NCBI GenBank assembly: GCA_003609755.1
Contig: AP017991.1
Coordinates: 3,179,501 to 3,243,500 of the forward strand
Direction: 5' to 3'
Length of the DNA: 64,000 bases
Source: Planktothrix agardhii NIES-204
GTDB taxonomy: Bacteria > Cyanobacteriota > Cyanobacteriia > Cyanobacteriales > Microcoleaceae
Shown one piece after another: positions 4,836 through 62,335 of the stretch. The notes beneath the pieces were generated by a model, which did not search any database, was not told the origin of the DNA, and saw nothing but the letters and a program-made list of their open reading frames with translations. Position 1 is the first letter of the stretch; each line of letters starts with the position of its first letter. A program made the position numbers and the translations under genes.

Positions 4836-5270
4836 TTAAAGTTGAGTAGCTTGCTTCTGTAACCAACCTATGAGACTCTTGTATGCAGATAGCCACTGCT
4901 TATAGTCTTCATCATTAGGTTCACTGCCATCGTAGCGCATATCTATAAAATGTTGATTTTTAGGATTTTCAACTGTGACCAGCCATTTCATGACCTGCGG
5001 AATCTTTTGAACCCTATCATAGAGCTTATGATGCCGCTTTAAAGCATCTTGAAAACTATGTCCTGGATTTGTGATTGTGTGACCATGATTATTAGAATCC
5101 GTCTTCCATTCTCGCTTTGCACTTTTGGGTAATGAAGCCAATATCATTGATTTTAGCAGACACTCTATGGTAACACCACCAAAGTGCATGGCGGCTACTT
5201 TTCGGTTAGATGAACAAAGTATTTCGGTATCCTTATGACGCTGTAAAAAAGCAGATTGGTAATCTTCCAT
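4836..5270 (-). CDS. HEPN-domain-like protein
   Basis: About 144 residues from ATG 5268-5270; an upstream TTG in frame would add ten residues and looks less likely. The core helix pattern AAMHFGGVTIECLLKSMI resembles the HEPN signature, in which a helix with alternating small residues and an ECxLK-type motif follows a YxxA helix. An HSFQDALKRHHKLYDR segment follows. I see no clear RX4-6H RNase motif, so it may be a non-catalytic HEPN partner or sensor rather than a toxin. It sits 10 bases upstream of the two-ATPase gene on the same strand, which implies translation from one message and a shared function. The HEPN call rests on pattern recognition only. Confidence 0.6.
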   Translation of the reverse strand: MEDYQSAFLQRHKDTEILCSSNRKVAAMHFGGVTIECLLKSMILASLPKSAKREWKTDSNNHGHTITNPGHSFQDALKRHHKLYDRVQKIPQVMKWLVTVENPKNQHFIDMRYDGSEPNDEDYKQWLSAYKSLIGWLQKQATQL

Positions 5271-46489: not shown

Positions 46490-46512
46490 AGGTGGGCTAG
46501 ACCCACCTTTTT
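46490..46512 (+). terminator. Rho-independent terminator of tkt
   Basis: Stem AGGTGGG (46490-46496) and CCCACCT (46502-46508) with loop CTAGA, followed by TTTT. It starts 25 bases past the stop codon. Confidence 0.9.
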
Positions 46513-46635: not shown

Positions 46636-47499
46636 TTAGAACCCAGACGGTGAAGTATTTTCCCCCCTGTTCCCTCCCCCCCTAGCCCCTAGTGCACGGG
46701 GGCTAGGGGGGGATGTTCCGGTGTTCCCTGCCATAACAGATTCTTCTTTGCTTCCCCGTAGTAAATCCATAATATCACCGACATATTTTTGAAATTCTAA
46801 TTGACGTTTGATTTTATAATTACGTTCTTCGGGTAAATTAATTATAAATTCATCTTGGATTTGTCCGGGTCTGGTACTTAATACATAAATTCTTTGGGAT
46901 AGAAATACCGATTCTTCAACGTCGTGGGTAATCATTAAAATTGTACAACCTGTTTTTTGCCACAGTTGCCGTAAAAATTGTTGCATGGTTTCTTTGCTTT
47001 GAATATCTAACGCCCCAAAGGGTTCATCCATTAACAAAATTTTCGGTTGTGTGGCTAAAGCACGGGCAATGGCTACCCGTTGTTTCATACCTCCTGAGAG
47101 TTGTTTGGGATAACATTGGGCAAAGGGAGTTAAGCTAACAACATCTAAATAATAGGAGGTTTGTTCTCGGCGTTGTTGATGGGAAACCCCCTGTAATTTT
47201 AAGCCAAATTCTACATTTTTTTGGACGGTTAACCAGGGATACAAGGTATAGCGTTGAAATACCATTCCCCGGTCTGCTCCAGGCCCGGTGACTTCCATTC
47301 CATCCACGATAATTTTACCCGAAGTGGGATAATCTAACCCGGCAATCATTCTTAATAGGGTGGATTTTCCTGAACCGGATGCGCCAACAGCACAGACTAA
47401 TTCTCCGGTTTCAACGTGCAGATTAATATTTTGTAAGGCGACTAAAAACCCTGTTCGGGTGGGAAATTGTTTATGAAGATTATTTATTTCTAGGTGCAT
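46636..47499 (-). CDS. ABC transporter ATP-binding protein of the guanidine operon
   Basis: A 287-residue ATPase of the nitrate/sulfonate/taurine (SsuB/TauB) type. Walker [11 protein letters not shown]-loop [10 protein letters not shown], signature [16 protein letters not shown], Walker [13 protein letters not shown] and H-loop ITHDVEE are complete. The last 30 or so residues ([19 protein letters not shown] and onward) are read from a palindromic repeat; the ancestral protein probably ended near residue 255. It is the last gene of a run that begins at the guanidine-I riboswitch, so it should energise uptake of guanidine or a related compound. Confidence 0.85.
46666..46723. repeat. Palindromic repeat of the CCTGTTCCCTCCCCCCCTAG family, copy 2
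   Basis: CCCCCCCTAGCCCC and GGGGGCTAGGGGGGG pair around TAGTGCAC. It lies inside the 3' coding end of the ABC ATPase gene. Copy 1 is at 22723-22781. Confidence 0.7.
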
Positions 47500-47629
47500 T
47501 TTTTTGAGTCCAAACTGAATTATACTATCGTTAGTATCAATTAAATTTTTATAAATTCTATGGCAATTCTTTCTAACTGAGAGTTAATTGTAACTAACAG
47601 TTAATTCATGAACTGTTAAGTAGGATACA

Positions 47630-47661
47630 TTATTTTAGATAATGGGCAAAGCCCATCCTAC
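47630..47661. repeat. Inverted repeat with GGGCAAAGCCCATCCTAC
   Basis: GTAGGAT (47630-47636) pairs with ATCCTAC (47655-47661), and GGGC/GCCC pair inside. It lies in the 180-base gap between the permease and ATPase genes. GGGCAAAGCCCATCCTAC-type repeats are widespread in cyanobacteria. Confidence 0.55.
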
Positions 47662-47678
47662 GGTTAGAATACAGTTGA

Positions 47679-48488
47679 TTAATCAACAGCCCATTTGCAG
47701 GTTGTTTTTAATAGGAGTCGAAAAGATAAATCAATGGCAAACCCAATTAAACCTAGAATGATTAAACAGGCAAAAATTTCATCGGTTCTCAGGAATTTTT
47801 GAGCAATAACAATGCGTTTGCCTAACCCCACTTCGGCGGCAATTAATTCGGCTACAACGACTAAATTCCAACCTGCTGCCATATTAATTCGTAAGGCATC
47901 AATAATATTAGGAATAATGGCAGGAATAATCACTTGCGTTAACACCTGTTGACGATTTCCTCCTAAAGTATAGGTGGTTTCAATTAAATCCTTGGGAACG
48001 AATTTCACCGCATCCATAACCATCAAGGTATTGAAAAACAATGTTCCGATAAAAATTAACATGATTTTCGGAGCTTCATTAATACCGAGATATAAAACTA
48101 AAAGGGGAATAAATGCCGGGGCGGGCATATAGCGTAAAATCCCAATTAAGGGTTCAGTTAATGCCCGAATACTGGCAAAAGATCCCATCGAAATTCCTAA
48201 CGGAATTGCTAACATTGCCCCCAAGAAAAATCCCAACGTCACCCGTGTAATACTGGCTACGGTATCCTGTACTAAATACCCTTTTTCCCAGAGTCCAAAA
48301 CCCGCTTGTAAAACTTGGGGAGGAGTGGGAAGAAAGCGAGAATTAAGAATTAACGCTAAGACCCACCATAAACAGAAAGGAATAACAATGGAAAGGGTGA
48401 CTAATACCCAATTGAGAGCGGGAGGAATGTTTTCAGCAATACGCCAAAAAACAGTGGGTTTTAAAGCTTGGCGAGGTTTGGGTTCCAT
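47679..48488 (-). CDS. ABC transporter permease of the guanidine operon
   Basis: A 269-residue inner-membrane permease of the SsuC/NrtB family with about six helices and the cytosolic EAA loop (ETTYTLGGNRQQVLTQVIIPAIIPNI). I start it at ATG 48486-48488, four bases after the stop of the binding-protein gene. Upstream ATGs at 48515 and 48536 are in frame and would make the genes overlap. It should form the channel of an importer with the adjoining ATPase and binding protein. Confidence 0.85.
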   Translation of the reverse strand: MEPKPRQALKPTVFWRIAENIPPALNWVLVTLSIVIPFCLWWVLALILNSRFLPTPPQVLQAGFGLWEKGYLVQDTVASITRVTLGFFLGAMLAIPLGISMGSFASIRALTEPLIGILRYMPAPAFIPLLVLYLGINEAPKIMLIFIGTLFFNTLMVMDAVKFVPKDLIETTYTLGGNRQQVLTQVIIPAIIPNIIDALRINMAAGWNLVVVAELIAAEVGLGKRIVIAQKFLRTDEIFACLIILGLIGFAIDLSFRLLLKTTCKWAVD

Positions 48489-48492
48489 TGAA

Positions 48493-49530
48493 TTATTGTT
48501 TGAGAGTTTCTGCATATTTTTTAACAAATTGAGCATCTAAAATGGGTTCTAAATTGGGTTTGGTTTTGAGGAGTCCCACTTGTAACATAAAGTCACTCAT
48601 TTTTTTGGCGGCAAAGGGTAAATGTTTCATGGAATTTCCAGAATTAAAGGCTTCTAAATTGTCTTGAATGGTAAAAAATTTAGTCCCATCATTAAACATT
48701 TTGAACTCCTCACCAGAAACTCCCGCCCGTTTTGCCATAATTTCATTGGCTTTTTCAGGATTTTTTGCCATAAATTCTCGAATATCAAACCAAGTTTTAA
48801 CTAATCCTTGCACCTGTTCAGGACGGTCTTGAATCAATTTTTGACTCACCACTAATAAATCGGGAATAGCCCCCGGAAATTCTTTAGAACTGATTAACTC
48901 TTTACTGCCTTTTCGTTGTAATGCTGTTAACCAAAAGGGAGGAAATGCCCCCACTGCATCAACTTGTCCCGCTACGAAGGCGGCAGATGCAGCCCCCGTT
49001 TCTAAGTTAACAATTTCTACATCTTGACGAGACATTCCCTCTTTTTCTAAAGCTAACGCCAATAAGAAATCATCCACTAAACCTTCTTCAACGGCGACTT
49101 TTTTGGCTTTTAAATCTTGAATTTTATTGATATTTTCTGCTACAATAATCTTATCATTTCCGGCAGAGTTATCATTAATTAAAACCGCCACTTGACCATT
49201 TTTAGAATCACCTACAAAGGCAATCGTATCATTTAAGGTTTGACAATTCCCATCTAATTGTCCCGCCGCCATTGCTTGTAAGGATTCTAAATAGCCATCA
49301 AACCATTTTAATTCAACGTTCAAGCCATTGGCTTTAAATAATCCTTCAGATTCTGCGATCGCCCAAGGCCACCATCCAGACCAATTACTATATCCTATAA
49401 TTAGGGGGGGTGTTGTCGGAGTTGAAGCGTTATTATTCGGTGTGGAATTTTGGGCTTGATTACAACTTACAATTAACGCTAAACTCGCTACAAATACCCC
49501 AAATAAGGATAAAATTTTTCTGCGTTTCAT
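48493..49530 (-). CDS. ABC transporter substrate-binding lipoprotein of the guanidine operon
   Basis: A 345-residue binding protein of the SsuA/NrtA/ThiY type. The signal peptide ends in a lipobox (LALIVSCNQAQ, Cys about 23), followed by an Asn/Thr/Pro-rich linker. The mature part begins IIGYSNWSGWWPWAIAESEG, and VNLETGAASAAFVAGQVDAV is characteristic of the family. Trp and acidic residues near the start (SGWWPW, YLESLQA) may form a cationic-ligand pocket. Sequence alone would suggest nitrate, sulfonate or taurine, but the operon under a guanidine riboswitch makes guanidine the better guess. Confidence 0.85.
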   Translation of the reverse strand: MKRRKILSLFGVFVASLALIVSCNQAQNSTPNNNASTPTTPPLIIGYSNWSGWWPWAIAESEGLFKANGLNVELKWFDGYLESLQAMAAGQLDGNCQTLNDTIAFVGDSKNGQVAVLINDNSAGNDKIIVAENINKIQDLKAKKVAVEEGLVDDFLLALALEKEGMSRQDVEIVNLETGAASAAFVAGQVDAVGAFPPFWLTALQRKGSKELISSKEFPGAIPDLLVVSQKLIQDRPEQVQGLVKTWFDIREFMAKNPEKANEIMAKRAGVSGEEFKMFNDGTKFFTIQDNLEAFNSGNSMKHLPFAAKKMSDFMLQVGLLKTKPNLEPILDAQFVKKYAETLKQ

Positions 49531-49569
49531 CGATTTTTACCAGATGATTGAGTGGTTAAGTTTTGAGAG

Positions 49570-50283
49570 TTAAATGGACTGAAGATTTAAGGCTTCTGGG
49601 GTTAGGGTTTGCTTGGCTTTGACTTGTGTTCTTACCCATGCAAACCAAGTTTCTAACCCTTCTCCCGTTTTCGCAGAAACCGGAATAATTTTAACGTGAG
49701 GATTCATTTGTCGAACATTAGCAGCGATGCGTTCAACATCAATCTCTAAATAGGGGGATAAGTCCATTTTTGTGATTAATAAACAATCGGCTTCCTGAAA
49801 CATAATGGGATATTTCAAGGGTTTATCTTCTCCTTCTGTGATACTTAATAACGCAATTTTAGCGTGTTCTCCAACTTCAAATTCGGCCGGACAAACTAAA
49901 TTTCCCACATTTTCCACAAAGACTAAATCAAAGCTTTGAGGATCATAATCTTGTTCTAATTTATGAATTCCACCCCAGACCATTTTAGCATCTAAATGAC
50001 AGGAACGCCCGGTATTAATTGCAATCACGGGAACGTTATATTGACGCAATCGTTCTGCATCTAATTCTGTGGTCATATCTCCTTCTATGACCGCAAATTT
50101 TAACTCTAAATTTAAAGCTTCTAGGGTTTTTTCTAATAATACCGTTTTTCCCGCCCCTGGACTACTCATAATATTTAAACAGGTGATTCCCCATTGATCA
50201 AAATGGGATCGGTTATCATCGGCTAAATGTTGATTAGCATGGAGTAAATTAATTCCTAAACTAAAATCAAAGGTTTGGTGCAT
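49570..50283 (-). CDS. hypB: HypB-like nickel-insertion GTPase (GhaB type)
   Basis: A 237-residue SIMIBI GTPase. P-loop MSSPGAGKT, switch [13 protein letters not shown], the nickel site [26 protein letters not shown] and the specificity motif [10 protein letters not shown] are all present. It lacks the His-rich N-terminal nickel store of many HypB proteins. HypB normally serves NiFe hydrogenase, but no hydrogenase gene is near. Between the GdmH-type enzyme and its transporter, the better role is delivering nickel to guanidine hydrolase, as established for the equivalent Synechocystis accessory proteins GhaA and GhaB. Starts at ATG 50281-50283. Confidence 0.88.
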
Positions 50284-50361
50284 TTTGTTCTCCTATTGTT
50301 AATTAAAGTTGTGCTGGCAGTTAGGACAGAGACTAAGGGCACAAACCAGAAGGTAAACTCT

Positions 50362-50401
50362 TTTCCTCCCTGTTCCCTGTTCCCTGTTCCCTGTTCCCTG
50401 C
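50362..50401. repeat. Heptamer repeat (TTCCCTG x about 5)
   Basis: Consecutive TTCCCTG units fill the gap between the hypA-like and hypB-like genes. The operon is thus split by a repeat without loss of gene order. Confidence 0.75.
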
Positions 50402-50420
50402 TATAGAATATTCAATACGA

Positions 50421-50750
50421 TCAATTTTTAATTCCCGACCGGAAACGAATATCCTCCATCGGTGACTGACAGGTCGGACAAGCATAATGTAAACCGATTT
50501 CTGGGCAATATTCCGTTTGACAAGTATGACAATAGGCAATTAATGGAGTTTCTTGAATTTCTAGGATTACCCCTTCTAAAAAAGTATTGCGGGTTTGCAC
50601 TTCAAAAGCAAACTGCAAACTAACAGGTTCAACACAGGTAAATTTACCCACAATCAAATGAATTTTATCAATTTTATAAGGTTCAGGCTGTGAATTCCAC
50701 CAGTTTTTTACCGTTAGAATTAACGCCTTTGTCATGTCAGTTTCGTGCAT
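50421..50750 (-). CDS. hypA: HypA-like nickel chaperone (GhaA type)
   Basis: A 109-residue protein from ATG 50748-50750, giving the MHETDMTKAL start whose His2-Glu3 binds nickel in HypA; an upstream in-frame ATG would bury this motif. The zinc site is CHTC and CPTC, spaced by EYCPEIGLHYA. ILEIQETPLIAYCHTC is the usual HypA run into the zinc domain. It works with the HypB-like GTPase encoded downstream to insert nickel, here probably into the guanidine hydrolase. Neighbours argue against a hydrogenase role. Confidence 0.88.
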   Translation of the reverse strand: MHETDMTKALILTVKNWWNSQPEPYKIDKIHLIVGKFTCVEPVSLQFAFEVQTRNTFLEGVILEIQETPLIAYCHTCQTEYCPEIGLHYACPTCQSPMEDIRFRSGIKN

Positions 50751-50836
50751 AATTAGGAAACAGGAGAGAGCAGATAGCAAAAGATGGGGAAATCATGAGA
50801 AACCCGACACATGAAACCCGACACCCGACACCTAAT

Positions 50837-52030
50837 TTATGACCATTGAACGAGTTCGGGTTGAGATTCGGGGTAAATGTAGGAGGATTTTTGTTTGCGG
50901 GGTAACTGTCCTGAAACCACTAAATGGGCGAGGGTATCGCAAATCACGCGAGTTGCCATTAAAGACGTAATATCGCTGATATCATAAGGCGGAGAAACTT
51001 CAACAACTTCTAAGCCACAAACGGGAGCATTTTGAACAATTTTTTTGAGTAAATGTAAGGCTTCACGAGGTAATAAACCCCCAGGTTCCGGCCATCCTGT
51101 CCCAGGGACAAAACCCGCATCAATACAGTCAATATCGAAACTAATATACACACAATCCGTGCCATCTAATGCCCGTTCTAAAGCAAAGTTTGCCGCCGCA
51201 TCTAACCCCATTTCTGTAATATCAGTTACCGTGAGAATATTAGTGGCTCGTTCTCGACAAACCTTAACGCCTTCACGGGGAACTTGCCAGCCACCAATGC
51301 CCAATTGAACTAAATTTTTAGCTGGGGCATTCTTCATATTTGTGGCATGAAACCAGGGACAAGTGTGCATCCGTTCATCTAAGTCGGTTTCCTGGGTATC
51401 AACGTGACGATCAAAATGAATAATCCCAACTTTTTTATCGCCTAAATGCCGACAAATACCCCGAACAGTGGGGAAACCAATGGAATGATCTCCGCCTAAA
51501 ATAATCGGAAATGCACCGGAACTAAAAACATGAGCAATGCCTTTAGAAATCTGATCAAAGGATTTTTCATTATTAGCGGGAATCGTAAAAATATCCCCGA
51601 CATCACAAACCGTAATTTGTTCGCGTAAATCAACCCCTAATTCAAAATTGTAGGGGGTATAAAGAGCAGAAATTCGGCGAATTCCTTGGGGGCCAAAACG
51701 AGTTCCGGGCCGATAGGTTGTACCCGAATCATGGGGAACTCCAATAATCGCAACATCATAATTTTCGACTAAACGAACATCTTCTAAATAAGGAGCTTTT
51801 AGAAACGTATTAATCCCCGCATAATGGGGTAATTCTCCTCTGGAAAACGTCGGAATTCGGCGATCTTTGATACTTTCTGCGGCTTCTAAACCGTATTCTA
51901 AACCGCGATCTACTTCCTGTTGCCAACCTGTTAAAGGTAAGCGATTTTCCCGTTCTAATGCGCGTTGAGCTTCAGTTGAAAATTCATTGAAATTTTCATC
52001 GGGAGGTTGAAAAACAGATTGCTCACTCAT
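50837..52030 (-). CDS. gdmH: Guanidine hydrolase (nickel-dependent ureohydrolase), often annotated agmatinase
   Basis: A 397-residue ureohydrolase. Metal-binding motifs are GGDHSIGFP, HFDRHVDT and SFDIDCIDAGFVPGTGWPEP. The long N-terminal extension (about 90 residues before VAIIGVPHDSG) and the CIDAGFVPGTGWPEPGG segment differ from ordinary agmatinases. The Synechocystis enzyme Sll1077, once called agmatinase, is a nickel-dependent guanidine hydrolase giving urea and ammonium. This gene shares its context: guanidine-I riboswitch upstream, then hypA-like, hypB-like and ABC importer genes. AGGAG (about 52036-52040) precedes ATG 52028-52030. A repeat with CCCGACAC units lies between it and the hypA-like gene. 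Confidence 0.88.
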   Translation of the reverse strand: MSEQSVFQPPDENFNEFSTEAQRALERENRLPLTGWQQEVDRGLEYGLEAAESIKDRRIPTFSRGELPHYAGINTFLKAPYLEDVRLVENYDVAIIGVPHDSGTTYRPGTRFGPQGIRRISALYTPYNFELGVDLREQITVCDVGDIFTIPANNEKSFDQISKGIAHVFSSGAFPIILGGDHSIGFPTVRGICRHLGDKKVGIIHFDRHVDTQETDLDERMHTCPWFHATNMKNAPAKNLVQLGIGGWQVPREGVKVCRERATNILTVTDITEMGLDAAANFALERALDGTDCVYISFDIDCIDAGFVPGTGWPEPGGLLPREALHLLKKIVQNAPVCGLEVVEVSPPYDISDITSLMATRVICDTLAHLVVSGQLPRKQKSSYIYPESQPELVQWS

Positions 52031-52070
52031 GGAATAACTCCTGTTAGATGCAGATCAATCCGTACCATGC

Positions 52071-52122
52071 AAAAAGCCGAGAGCCGTTGCGAGGTACGTC
52101 CACTCACAAACTTCTCCCGGGC
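52071..52122 (-). terminator. Riboswitch-controlled terminator
   Basis: In the RNA, GCCCGGGAG (complement of 52114-52122), the conserved 3' strand of the aptamer, can pair with CUCUCGGC (complement of 52076-52083) with one bulged C and one G-U pair. UUUUU (52071-52075) follows directly. Forming this stem would destroy the ligand-bound aptamer, the usual ON-switch logic of this class. Confidence 0.75.
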
Positions 52123-52242
52123 TTTTTTCCCGCCGTGTAGCTACCCTTTTTGAAGAACGGATTCCTAAAATCTGAATCCAGGATAGCTTGCTTCTCTCGG
52201 ACCTGGCGTTTTCAGCAATTTGCAGCAAACCGGAACCCTAGA
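52111..52242 (-). promoter_or_regulatory. Guanidine-I riboswitch (ykkC class) aptamer
   Basis: On the minus strand the region begins CTAGGGTTCCG, then has GGTCCGAGAG, then ACACGGCGGGA, an A-run, and GCCCGGGAGA, the conserved blocks of the guanidine-I aptamer in the right order and spacing. It lies 80 bases upstream of the guanidine hydrolase start. Binding of guanidine should stabilise the aptamer and let transcription continue into the six-gene operon. Confidence 0.93.
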
Positions 52243-52351
52243 AGCAATTAATTTGAGTTAAAACTTGTCCTGAAATTAACAAGTTCTGAATCGAAAGACA
52301 GTATCAAAAGTTACAGAAGTCTCATTTCCTGTTTTTAAGAGTTATGCAGAT

Positions 52352-52565
52352 TCACCTCAGAATTTGAGTATAAAGATCGCTTAATTTTAAGGCGACACCT
52401 TGCCAACTAAATTGAGTTTCTACTTGTTTTCTTCTCCATCACTAAAGCCCGGATTTGATCTCTAGGAACAAATTCTTCTGGGCCCGCAATTAACCGAATT
52501 GTGCGACAATTGGGACTATGCTGAACCATCAGGGGTTGATCAGGATGACTTCTGCGAGTGAACAT
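52352..52565 (-). pseudogene. Glycosyltransferase family 4-type gene remnant
   Basis: A minus-strand frame from ATG 52563-52565 reads FTRRSHPDQPLMVQHSPNCR then TIRLIAGPEEFVPRDQI, the typical N-terminal region of sucrose-phosphate-synthase-like glycosyltransferases. Soon the frame shifts to VETQFSWQGVALKLSDLYTQ and a stop (52352-52354), the typical C-terminal end. About 300 middle codons are missing, so an internal deletion fused both ends of a dead gene. The riboswitch operon begins just beyond. Confidence 0.75.
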
Positions 52566-52662
52566 ATCCACTGGCTATCCTGAGTTCGATATTATTTTAA
52601 TTGTCCTGAACGCCAAATCCTAAATTATTAACCCTAAGCCTAACTCATTAATTTTCTTGCTG

Positions 52663-61795: not shown

Positions 61796-61811
61796 ATTTT
61801 AACGCCTAATT

Positions 61812-62335
61812 CTAATCGGGATATTCTGAAAAAAAAAATTCCCCCAACCTAAGTTGAAGGAAAACCATCAGGGTGCATCTACTCTTGCTTATTCGTTTAG
61901 AATTATTTCTGATCGGGATATTCTTAAAAAAAATTCCCCCAACCTAAGTTGAAGGAAACCATCAGGGTGCATCTACTTTTGTTTATTCTTTTAGGATTAT
62001 TTCTGATCGGGATATTCTCAAAAAAAAATTCCCCCAACCTAAGTTGAAGGAAAACCATCAGAGTGCATCTATTTTTGTTTATTCTTTTAAGATTATTTCT
62101 GATCGGGATATTCTCAAAAAAAAATTCCCCCAACCTAAGTTGAAGGAAAACCATCAGAGTGCATCTATTTTTGTTTATTCTTTTAGGATTATTTCTGATC
62201 GGGATATTCTCAAAAAAAATTCTCCCAACCTAAGTTGAAGGAAAACCATCAGGGTGCATCTACTCTTACTTATTCCTGGGCGATTGGTTCTGATCAGGAT
62301 ATTCTCAAAAAAAAATTTCCCCAACCTAAATATGA
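61812..62335. repeat. Tandem array of about 96-bp units (five full plus one partial)
   Basis: The segment ATCGGGATATTCT recurs at 61815, 61912, 62006, 62102, 62198 and (as ATCAGG) 62293, i.e. every 94-97 bases. Each unit holds an A run, TTCCCCCAACCTAAGTTGAA, CATCAGGGTGCATCTA and an AT-rich part. Unit lengths are not multiples of three and reading frames change, so it is not coding. CAACCTAAGTTG can form a small hairpin. There is no spacer diversity, so it is not CRISPR. Function unknown. Confidence 0.85.

Follow-up and report, generated by a model that had tools for sequence, protein, structure and literature searches.

Why would a ureohydrolase gene in a cyanobacterium share one strand with hypA-like and hypB-like genes, whose names point to hydrogenase maturation, and with the genes of a three-part importer, all behind a riboswitch? 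The question is raised by a stretch of 64,000 nucleotides from the bloom-forming Planktothrix agardhii NIES-204 (contig AP017991.1, positions 3,179,501 to 3,243,500; hereafter the window), in which a guanidine-I riboswitch is followed on the minus strand (46636-52252) by gdmH, hypA, hypB and the genes for a substrate-binding protein (SBP), a permease and an ATPase. From the sequence we judge, with a probability of roughly 94%, that this is a cyanobacterial guanidine-assimilation operon, gdmH-hypA-hypB-SBP-permease-ATPase, of the same kind as sll1077-sll1082 of Synechocystis, in which we take sll1078 and sll1079 to be hypA and hypB; the hypA-like and hypB-like genes of the window are presumably ghaA and ghaB. 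An initial annotation of this DNA had placed the riboswitch, the hydrolase, the HypA-like and HypB-like proteins and the importer on one strand in 46636-52242; all of them are found at the given places on the minus strand, except that the aptamer ends 10 bases further, at 52252 (Table 1).

The guanidine-I model RF00442 is matched over its complete length (positions 1-107, cmscan) with a covariance score of 82.6 bits against a gathering score of 63 (E 3.3e-13), which bears out the aptamer that had been proposed here from sequence motifs; this is the sole RF00442 match found across the 5.08-Mb genome. In the leader (about 52030-52260, minus strand), which carries the conserved motif GGUCCGAGAG, the 3' segment of the aptamer, AAAAAAGCCCGGGAG (52114-52128), is able to pair with CTCTCGGCTTTTTG (52070-52083), located 39 bases 5' of the gdmH start. 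The duplex has an energy of -19.3 kcal/mol, a value that 2 of 100 shuffled versions of the downstream stretch attain, and a terminator-like hairpin appears in the minimum-free-energy fold (z -1.67, equalled by 12 of 200 shuffles); we predict that 52070-52128 is an ON-switch expression platform. From 375 confirmed relatives the best 80 were retained for comparison, and the 80 loci counted here are therefore the closest ones; they are mostly cyanobacterial, and some lie on short contigs. Together with the window they give 81 upstream regions, 70 of which hold the aptamer 3' motif, and in 65 of the 70, the window included, a comparable alternative partner is present at ≤5 of 100 shuffles; in 36 of these 65 a T-run adjoins the alternative partner. 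Because many of the loci are related, the 65 are not independent events.

The hydrolase encoded directly behind this leader has as its best solved relatives 7esr and 7oi1 (777 bits), structures of the Synechocystis enzyme according to the available text of PMC11410670, with which it is identical at 327 of 372 aligned residues (88%). It scores 596 bits against 9fek, the Nitrospira guanidinase, while the best solved relative that is not a guanidinase, proclavaminate amidinohydrolase, reaches 176.6 bits. The GWPEPGG-type insert named in the initial annotation is present as GTGWPEPGG at residues 310-318. Guanidinases are reported to require Thr, His and Trp at three positions, 105, 222 and 313 in Nitrospira inopinata (PMC11410670, in part); T105, H222 and W313 are found in the window GdmH and in 82 of 82 GdmH rows of the alignment, and the corresponding residues are S/H/T in a second arginase-family protein encoded elsewhere in the genome and S/N/T in E. 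coli SpeB. In a tree built from 24 of the 84 rows, the GdmH rows separate from this paralogue and E. coli SpeB with support of 95/93. By these comparisons the window hydrolase groups with the characterised guanidinases and not with the agmatinases, as the initial annotation had expected. For the Synechocystis protein, nickel dependence and guanidine hydrolysis are reported in the portions available of PMC11410670 and PMC12186494.

Table 1. Features of the operon and its immediate surroundings, in window coordinates.
Feature	Positions	Strand	Basis
Guanidine-I riboswitch aptamer (RF00442)	52112-52252	-	cmscan, whole model 1-107
Predicted expression platform	52070-52128	-	Alternative pairing of the aptamer 3' segment; terminator-like hairpin with T-run
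gdmH, nickel guanidine hydrolase (guanidinase), 397 amino acids	50837-52030	-	7esr/7oi1 match; residues T105/H222/W313
hypA-like nickel chaperone, 109 amino acids	50421-50750	-	PF01155, TIGR00100
hypB-like GTPase nickel chaperone, 237 amino acids	49570-50283	-	TIGR00073, paralogue comparison
Importer SBP, substrate-binding lipoprotein, SsuA/TauA fold, 345 amino acids	48493-49530	-	
Importer permease, 285 amino acids	47679-48536	-	PF00528
Importer ATPase, 287 amino acids as open reading frame	46636-47499	-	PF00005; C-terminal tail from palindromic repeat
Glycosyltransferase gene remnants, outside the operon	52342-52434 and 52455-52581	-	Gene whole in locus L117

If the hydrolase is a guanidinase, what are the hydrogenase-type chaperones for? 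The open reading frame (ORF) listed for HypA begins at a TTG (50780), and its PF01155 match begins at codon 11, an ATG. Both proteins pass NCBIfam cut-offs, HypA with 100 bits for TIGR00100 (cut-off 88.1) and HypB with 311.9 bits for TIGR00073 (cut-off 121.2). The genome holds a second hypA/hypB pair (C1:2398545-2399653) and one NiFe-hydrogenase large-subunit frame (C1:4102325); a third HypB-related GTPase, probably UreG, scores below the HypB cut-off. The second HypB carries a His-rich N-terminus and the operon HypB is without it. The operon HypB is 44% identical to its own paralogue versus 72-99% to the gdmH-adjoining HypB in 69 of the 80 loci, and the operon HypA is 33% identical to its paralogue versus 56-98% over 73 of the 80 (matches over 90 amino acids). 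Because the operon HypB is far closer to the operon HypBs elsewhere than to its paralogue, the operon chaperones look dedicated; a role as hydrogenase chaperones is disfavoured, since another hypA/hypB pair is present in the genome. The earlier suggestion that these proteins do not serve hydrogenase, and would instead be dedicated to GdmH, is thus supported indirectly.

The importer genes are the last three of the operon, on the same strand as gdmH. A lipoprotein signal on the SBP was read by eye, and nine residues, W50, W53, W56, F77, D78, Y80, D120, D126 and E148, are invariant across 35 SBPs, a set that would suit a flat cation. The ATPase has a complete ABC domain (PF00005, residues 22-161 matching model positions 1-136 of 137). 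The strongest basis for the substrate comes from a related locus, L069, which has two guanidine-I aptamers (1082-1202 and 5047-5184; 82.1 and 62.5 bits), one preceding the importer cassette and the other preceding gdmH-hypA-hypB; from such co-regulation we infer that the importer would carry guanidine. The tail at the 3' end of the ATPase ORF crosses a palindrome (46674-46713) of the type CCCCTAGCCCCC...GGGGGCTAGGGGG around a GTGCAC core. A closely similar palindrome pattern has 59 forward and 57 reverse matches in the genome, and among those listed the two sets mostly coincide in position; a reversed control gave none; the window's own copy has a different spacing and is not among the matches listed. 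In Planktothrix rubescens PCC7821 (L002) the ATPase frame ends earlier, with about 1.4 kb inserted at that point, and the end of the ORF in the window probably does not belong to the conserved protein.

Put together, the operon is expected to work as follows. Without guanidine, the aptamer 3' strand would pair downstream, a terminator hairpin would form, and transcription would halt before gdmH; with guanidine bound, the aptamer would retain its 3' strand and the operon would be transcribed, as the riboswitch class suggests. The ABC importer would take up guanidinium, HypA and HypB would load nickel into GdmH, as the literature reports for Synechocystis, and GdmH would convert guanidine into urea and ammonium; the genome's urease, whose gene is present, would complete the pathway.

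The arrangement as a whole has published counterparts. According to the available text of PMC8390497, sll1077 and its analogues form operons with hypA, hypB, SsuA_fam (sll1080), TM_PBP2 (sll1081) and ABC_NrtD_SsuB (sll1082) under guanidine riboswitches, and the part available of PMC12186494, a review, states the whole pathway, with import of guanidine by an ABC transporter in Synechocystis. Riboswitch class and gene set are the same in Synechocystis PCC 6803 as in the window, with the hydrolase 88% identical, and we found no difference of principle; particular to the window are the repeat-derived ATPase tail and the location between tkt and ftsW. In Limnospira indica PCC 8005, likewise a filamentous non-heterocyst cyanobacterium, RNA182 (ykkC-yxkD) lies before a six-gene cassette (_40486 to _40491) of agmatinase, hypA1, hypB1 and three ABC transporter genes, matching the window in riboswitch and in all six kinds of gene; what is available of that paper (PMC8400943) retains the agmatinase name and function, unlike the guanidinase reading given here. 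Since this gene set has been published with this riboswitch for both Synechocystis and Limnospira, the window operon is a further member of a known system and itself brings no new principle. In the literature searched we found no paper on a guanidine riboswitch in Planktothrix. Another known system is the locus of the comammox organism N. inopinata, which resembles the window in its guanidine-I riboswitch and homologous guanidinase (9fek, 596 bits); as described in the available portion of PMC11410670, it has an APC permease rather than an ABC importer and no nickel chaperones. The metformin and dimethylguanidine hydrolases share with the window a nickel ureohydrolase and neighbouring HypA/HypB genes, and activation of the enzyme by the adjacent HypA/HypB is reported (PMC11399263, in part); these hydrolases are heteromeric, act on other substrates and score ≤142 bits to the window GdmH.

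Several observations weigh against the guanidine-assimilation reading or its parts. Folding energy alone is unremarkable to modest (z -1.67 and -0.68), and the proposed terminator is absent from the list of a consensus terminator scan, which permits loops of 3-8 only. The aptamer 3' motif was not found in 11 of the 81 upstream regions (L004, L012, L014, L027, L034, L041, L046, L060, L065, L076 and L078), and nine of these loci gave no guanidine-I match on the fetched stretch (cmscan, E≤0.01; all but L060 and L076); because of these nine, this riboswitch is not obligatory for gdmH loci. The two agmatinase-type rows of the GdmH tree sit on extremely long branches, for which reason we give residues and scores more weight than that tree. 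The 14 operon HypBs group at 81/94 in a HypB tree, short of high-confidence support, with the bootstrap not settled. The SBP is just 49-71% identical to the 34 other SBPs, and a fold search finds TauA/SsuA closest, a result that is uninformative on the ligand.

Of the other explanations, the one that survives best is an operon for guanidine with an importer mainly for a substituted guanidine such as methylguanidine, guanylurea or similar. The SBP pocket may accommodate other guanidines; in some relatives gdmH is followed by a methyltransferase and/or GST-like gene before hypA, and HypA/HypB also accompany the related hydrolases of metformin and dimethylguanidine (PMC11399263, in part). No extra modifying gene lies in the window operon, both the switch class and the GdmH residues indicate free guanidine, and the Synechocystis ABC transporter is reported to import guanidine (PMC12186494, in part), so that we regard this explanation as improbable.

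Still less room is left for agmatine or arginine catabolism, in which an agmatinase would stand beside hydrogenase chaperones and a sulfonate or nitrate importer. This is the reading that automatic annotation would give, and the initial annotation had warned of it. The warning is correct because TIGR01230 (agmatinase), TIGR00100, TIGR00073 and TIGR01728 (SsuA_fam) all pass their NCBIfam cut-offs, the SBP with 278.1 bits against 163.5; it holds for four of the six proteins and not for the other two, since no NCBIfam family is over its cut-off for the permease (13 rows) or, among 25 of 189 rows listed, for the ATPase. The window GdmH passes the agmatinase cut-off with 176.5 bits against 174.3; TIGR01230 does not separate this guanidinase from agmatinases, and the match is therefore no proof of agmatinase activity. 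The TauA/SsuA fold of the SBP would also fit an importer of sulfonates. We reject the agmatinase reading, which we consider very improbable, on the guanidine-I riboswitch directly upstream, on W313 and T105, positions at which T and S stand in the paralogue and in E. coli SpeB, and on the guanidinases 7esr/7oi1 and 9fek, which score far above any agmatinase; a separate hypA/hypB pair elsewhere in the genome and the reported preference of Sll1077 for guanidine (PMC8390497, in part) also speak against it. That the operon is decayed and non-functional in this strain, as the repeat-derived ATPase tail, the glycosyltransferase remnants upstream and a patchy distribution (2 of 10 genomes in the genus) might suggest, is equally improbable given that all six reading frames are open, that GdmH shares 99% identity with its P. 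rubescens PCC7821 counterpart and keeps the key residues, and that the ABC domain is complete.

How, then, did a guanidine operon come to lie here? GdmH (E≤1e-150) is found in 44 of 292 genomes of the phylum, in 3 of 59 of the family and, as noted, in two of the genus, the window's genome included in these counts; the distribution is patchy. The 5.6 kb around the operon match the P. rubescens locus at 97.9%. The operon sits between tkt and ftsW, and we fetched the region before ftsW for seven of the eight genus genomes without GdmH (the eighth, 73% complete, was excluded); in none of these seven regions was gdmH, hypA, hypB, the SBP or the permease found before ftsW. In four of the seven (L113-L116) tkt ends ≤0.3 kb from ftsW; in L117 tkt and ftsW are separated by about 2.5 kb that carries a glycosyltransferase gene and a sulfotransferase-like gene, and in the remaining two tkt is not within the fetched 12.5 kb. 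In L113-L115 homology to the window breaks at 46512 and picks up again at about 52662, and the glycosyltransferase gene that L117 has intact survives in the window as two remnants. Gain of the operon in one lineage appears likelier than many losses. GC content (operon 39.7%, window 39.5%) gives no information on recent transfer, and consensus scans for promoters (9 found, 15.4 expected) and terminators (8 found, 7.0 expected) are likewise uninformative.

Among the 80 loci, 61 extend at least 7.5 kb downstream, and in 41 of these all five downstream genes lie 3' of gdmH. L014 and L027 have all five downstream genes and gave no guanidine-I match (E≤0.01, fetched stretch); L004, L012 and L041 are likewise gdmH loci without such a match.

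The comparison with relatives points to a possible second type of guanidine importer, a lead that can be tested: in some of them a different transporter takes the place of the importer. An SSF (PF00474) symporter lies immediately 3' of hypB in L028, L033, L046, L051 and L057 (tested with Pfam in L028, L033, L046 and L057, by similarity in L051; the L046 match is split into two pieces), and in L034 one lies on the opposite strand, 3.7 kb before gdmH. None of these six loci showed a match to the SBP or the permease. A search of the 292 genomes at E≤1e-120 finds close symporter relatives in 6, all of which have GdmH, a co-occurrence with a chance of 8.6e-6 given 44 of 292 if relatedness is ignored. 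In three of the six (L099, L100, L101) the symporter follows hypB directly, behind a guanidine-I aptamer; in the other three the symporter and gdmH are on different contigs, and in one of these, genome G170, the symporter has a guanidine-I aptamer of its own (L098:1273-1387, 86.3 bits), while by the symporters in L094 and L097 no guanidine-I match was found (E≤0.1, 1.5-kb flanks). The symporter clade is a candidate sodium-coupled guanidine importer. Strict exclusivity between symporter and ABC cassette is ruled out by G170, where an SBP adjoins hypB besides the separate symporter, and by L034, where a protein closely related to the importer ATPase (75% over 253 amino acids) is encoded beyond the symporter.

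In L019, L028, L039, L042, L051, L061 and L100, gdmH and hypA are separated by a methyltransferase and/or GST-like gene (tested with Pfam in L028, by similarity in the remainder). We give an even chance to a general picture of exchangeable importers, in which one PF00474 clade would replace the ABC cassette as sodium-coupled guanidine importers and the operons with methyltransferase or GST-like genes may handle modified guanidines. In the literature searched we found no paper on a sodium:solute symporter for guanidine, and the papers found there on guanidine riboswitches together with symporters included, by title, none on cyanobacterial importers; the one listed when cyanobacteria were added concerned C. 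difficile.

Elsewhere in the window, positions 61810-62329 hold a tandem array of 5.4 copies of a 96-nucleotide unit matching NsiR1, two of the copies over the gathering score. Planktothrix is a genus that is not known to form heterocysts. The literature searched for NsiR1 with Planktothrix gave nothing on that genus, the match, by its listing, concerning Nodularia; an NsiR1-like RNA is reported in Limnospira, in the part available of PMC8400943.

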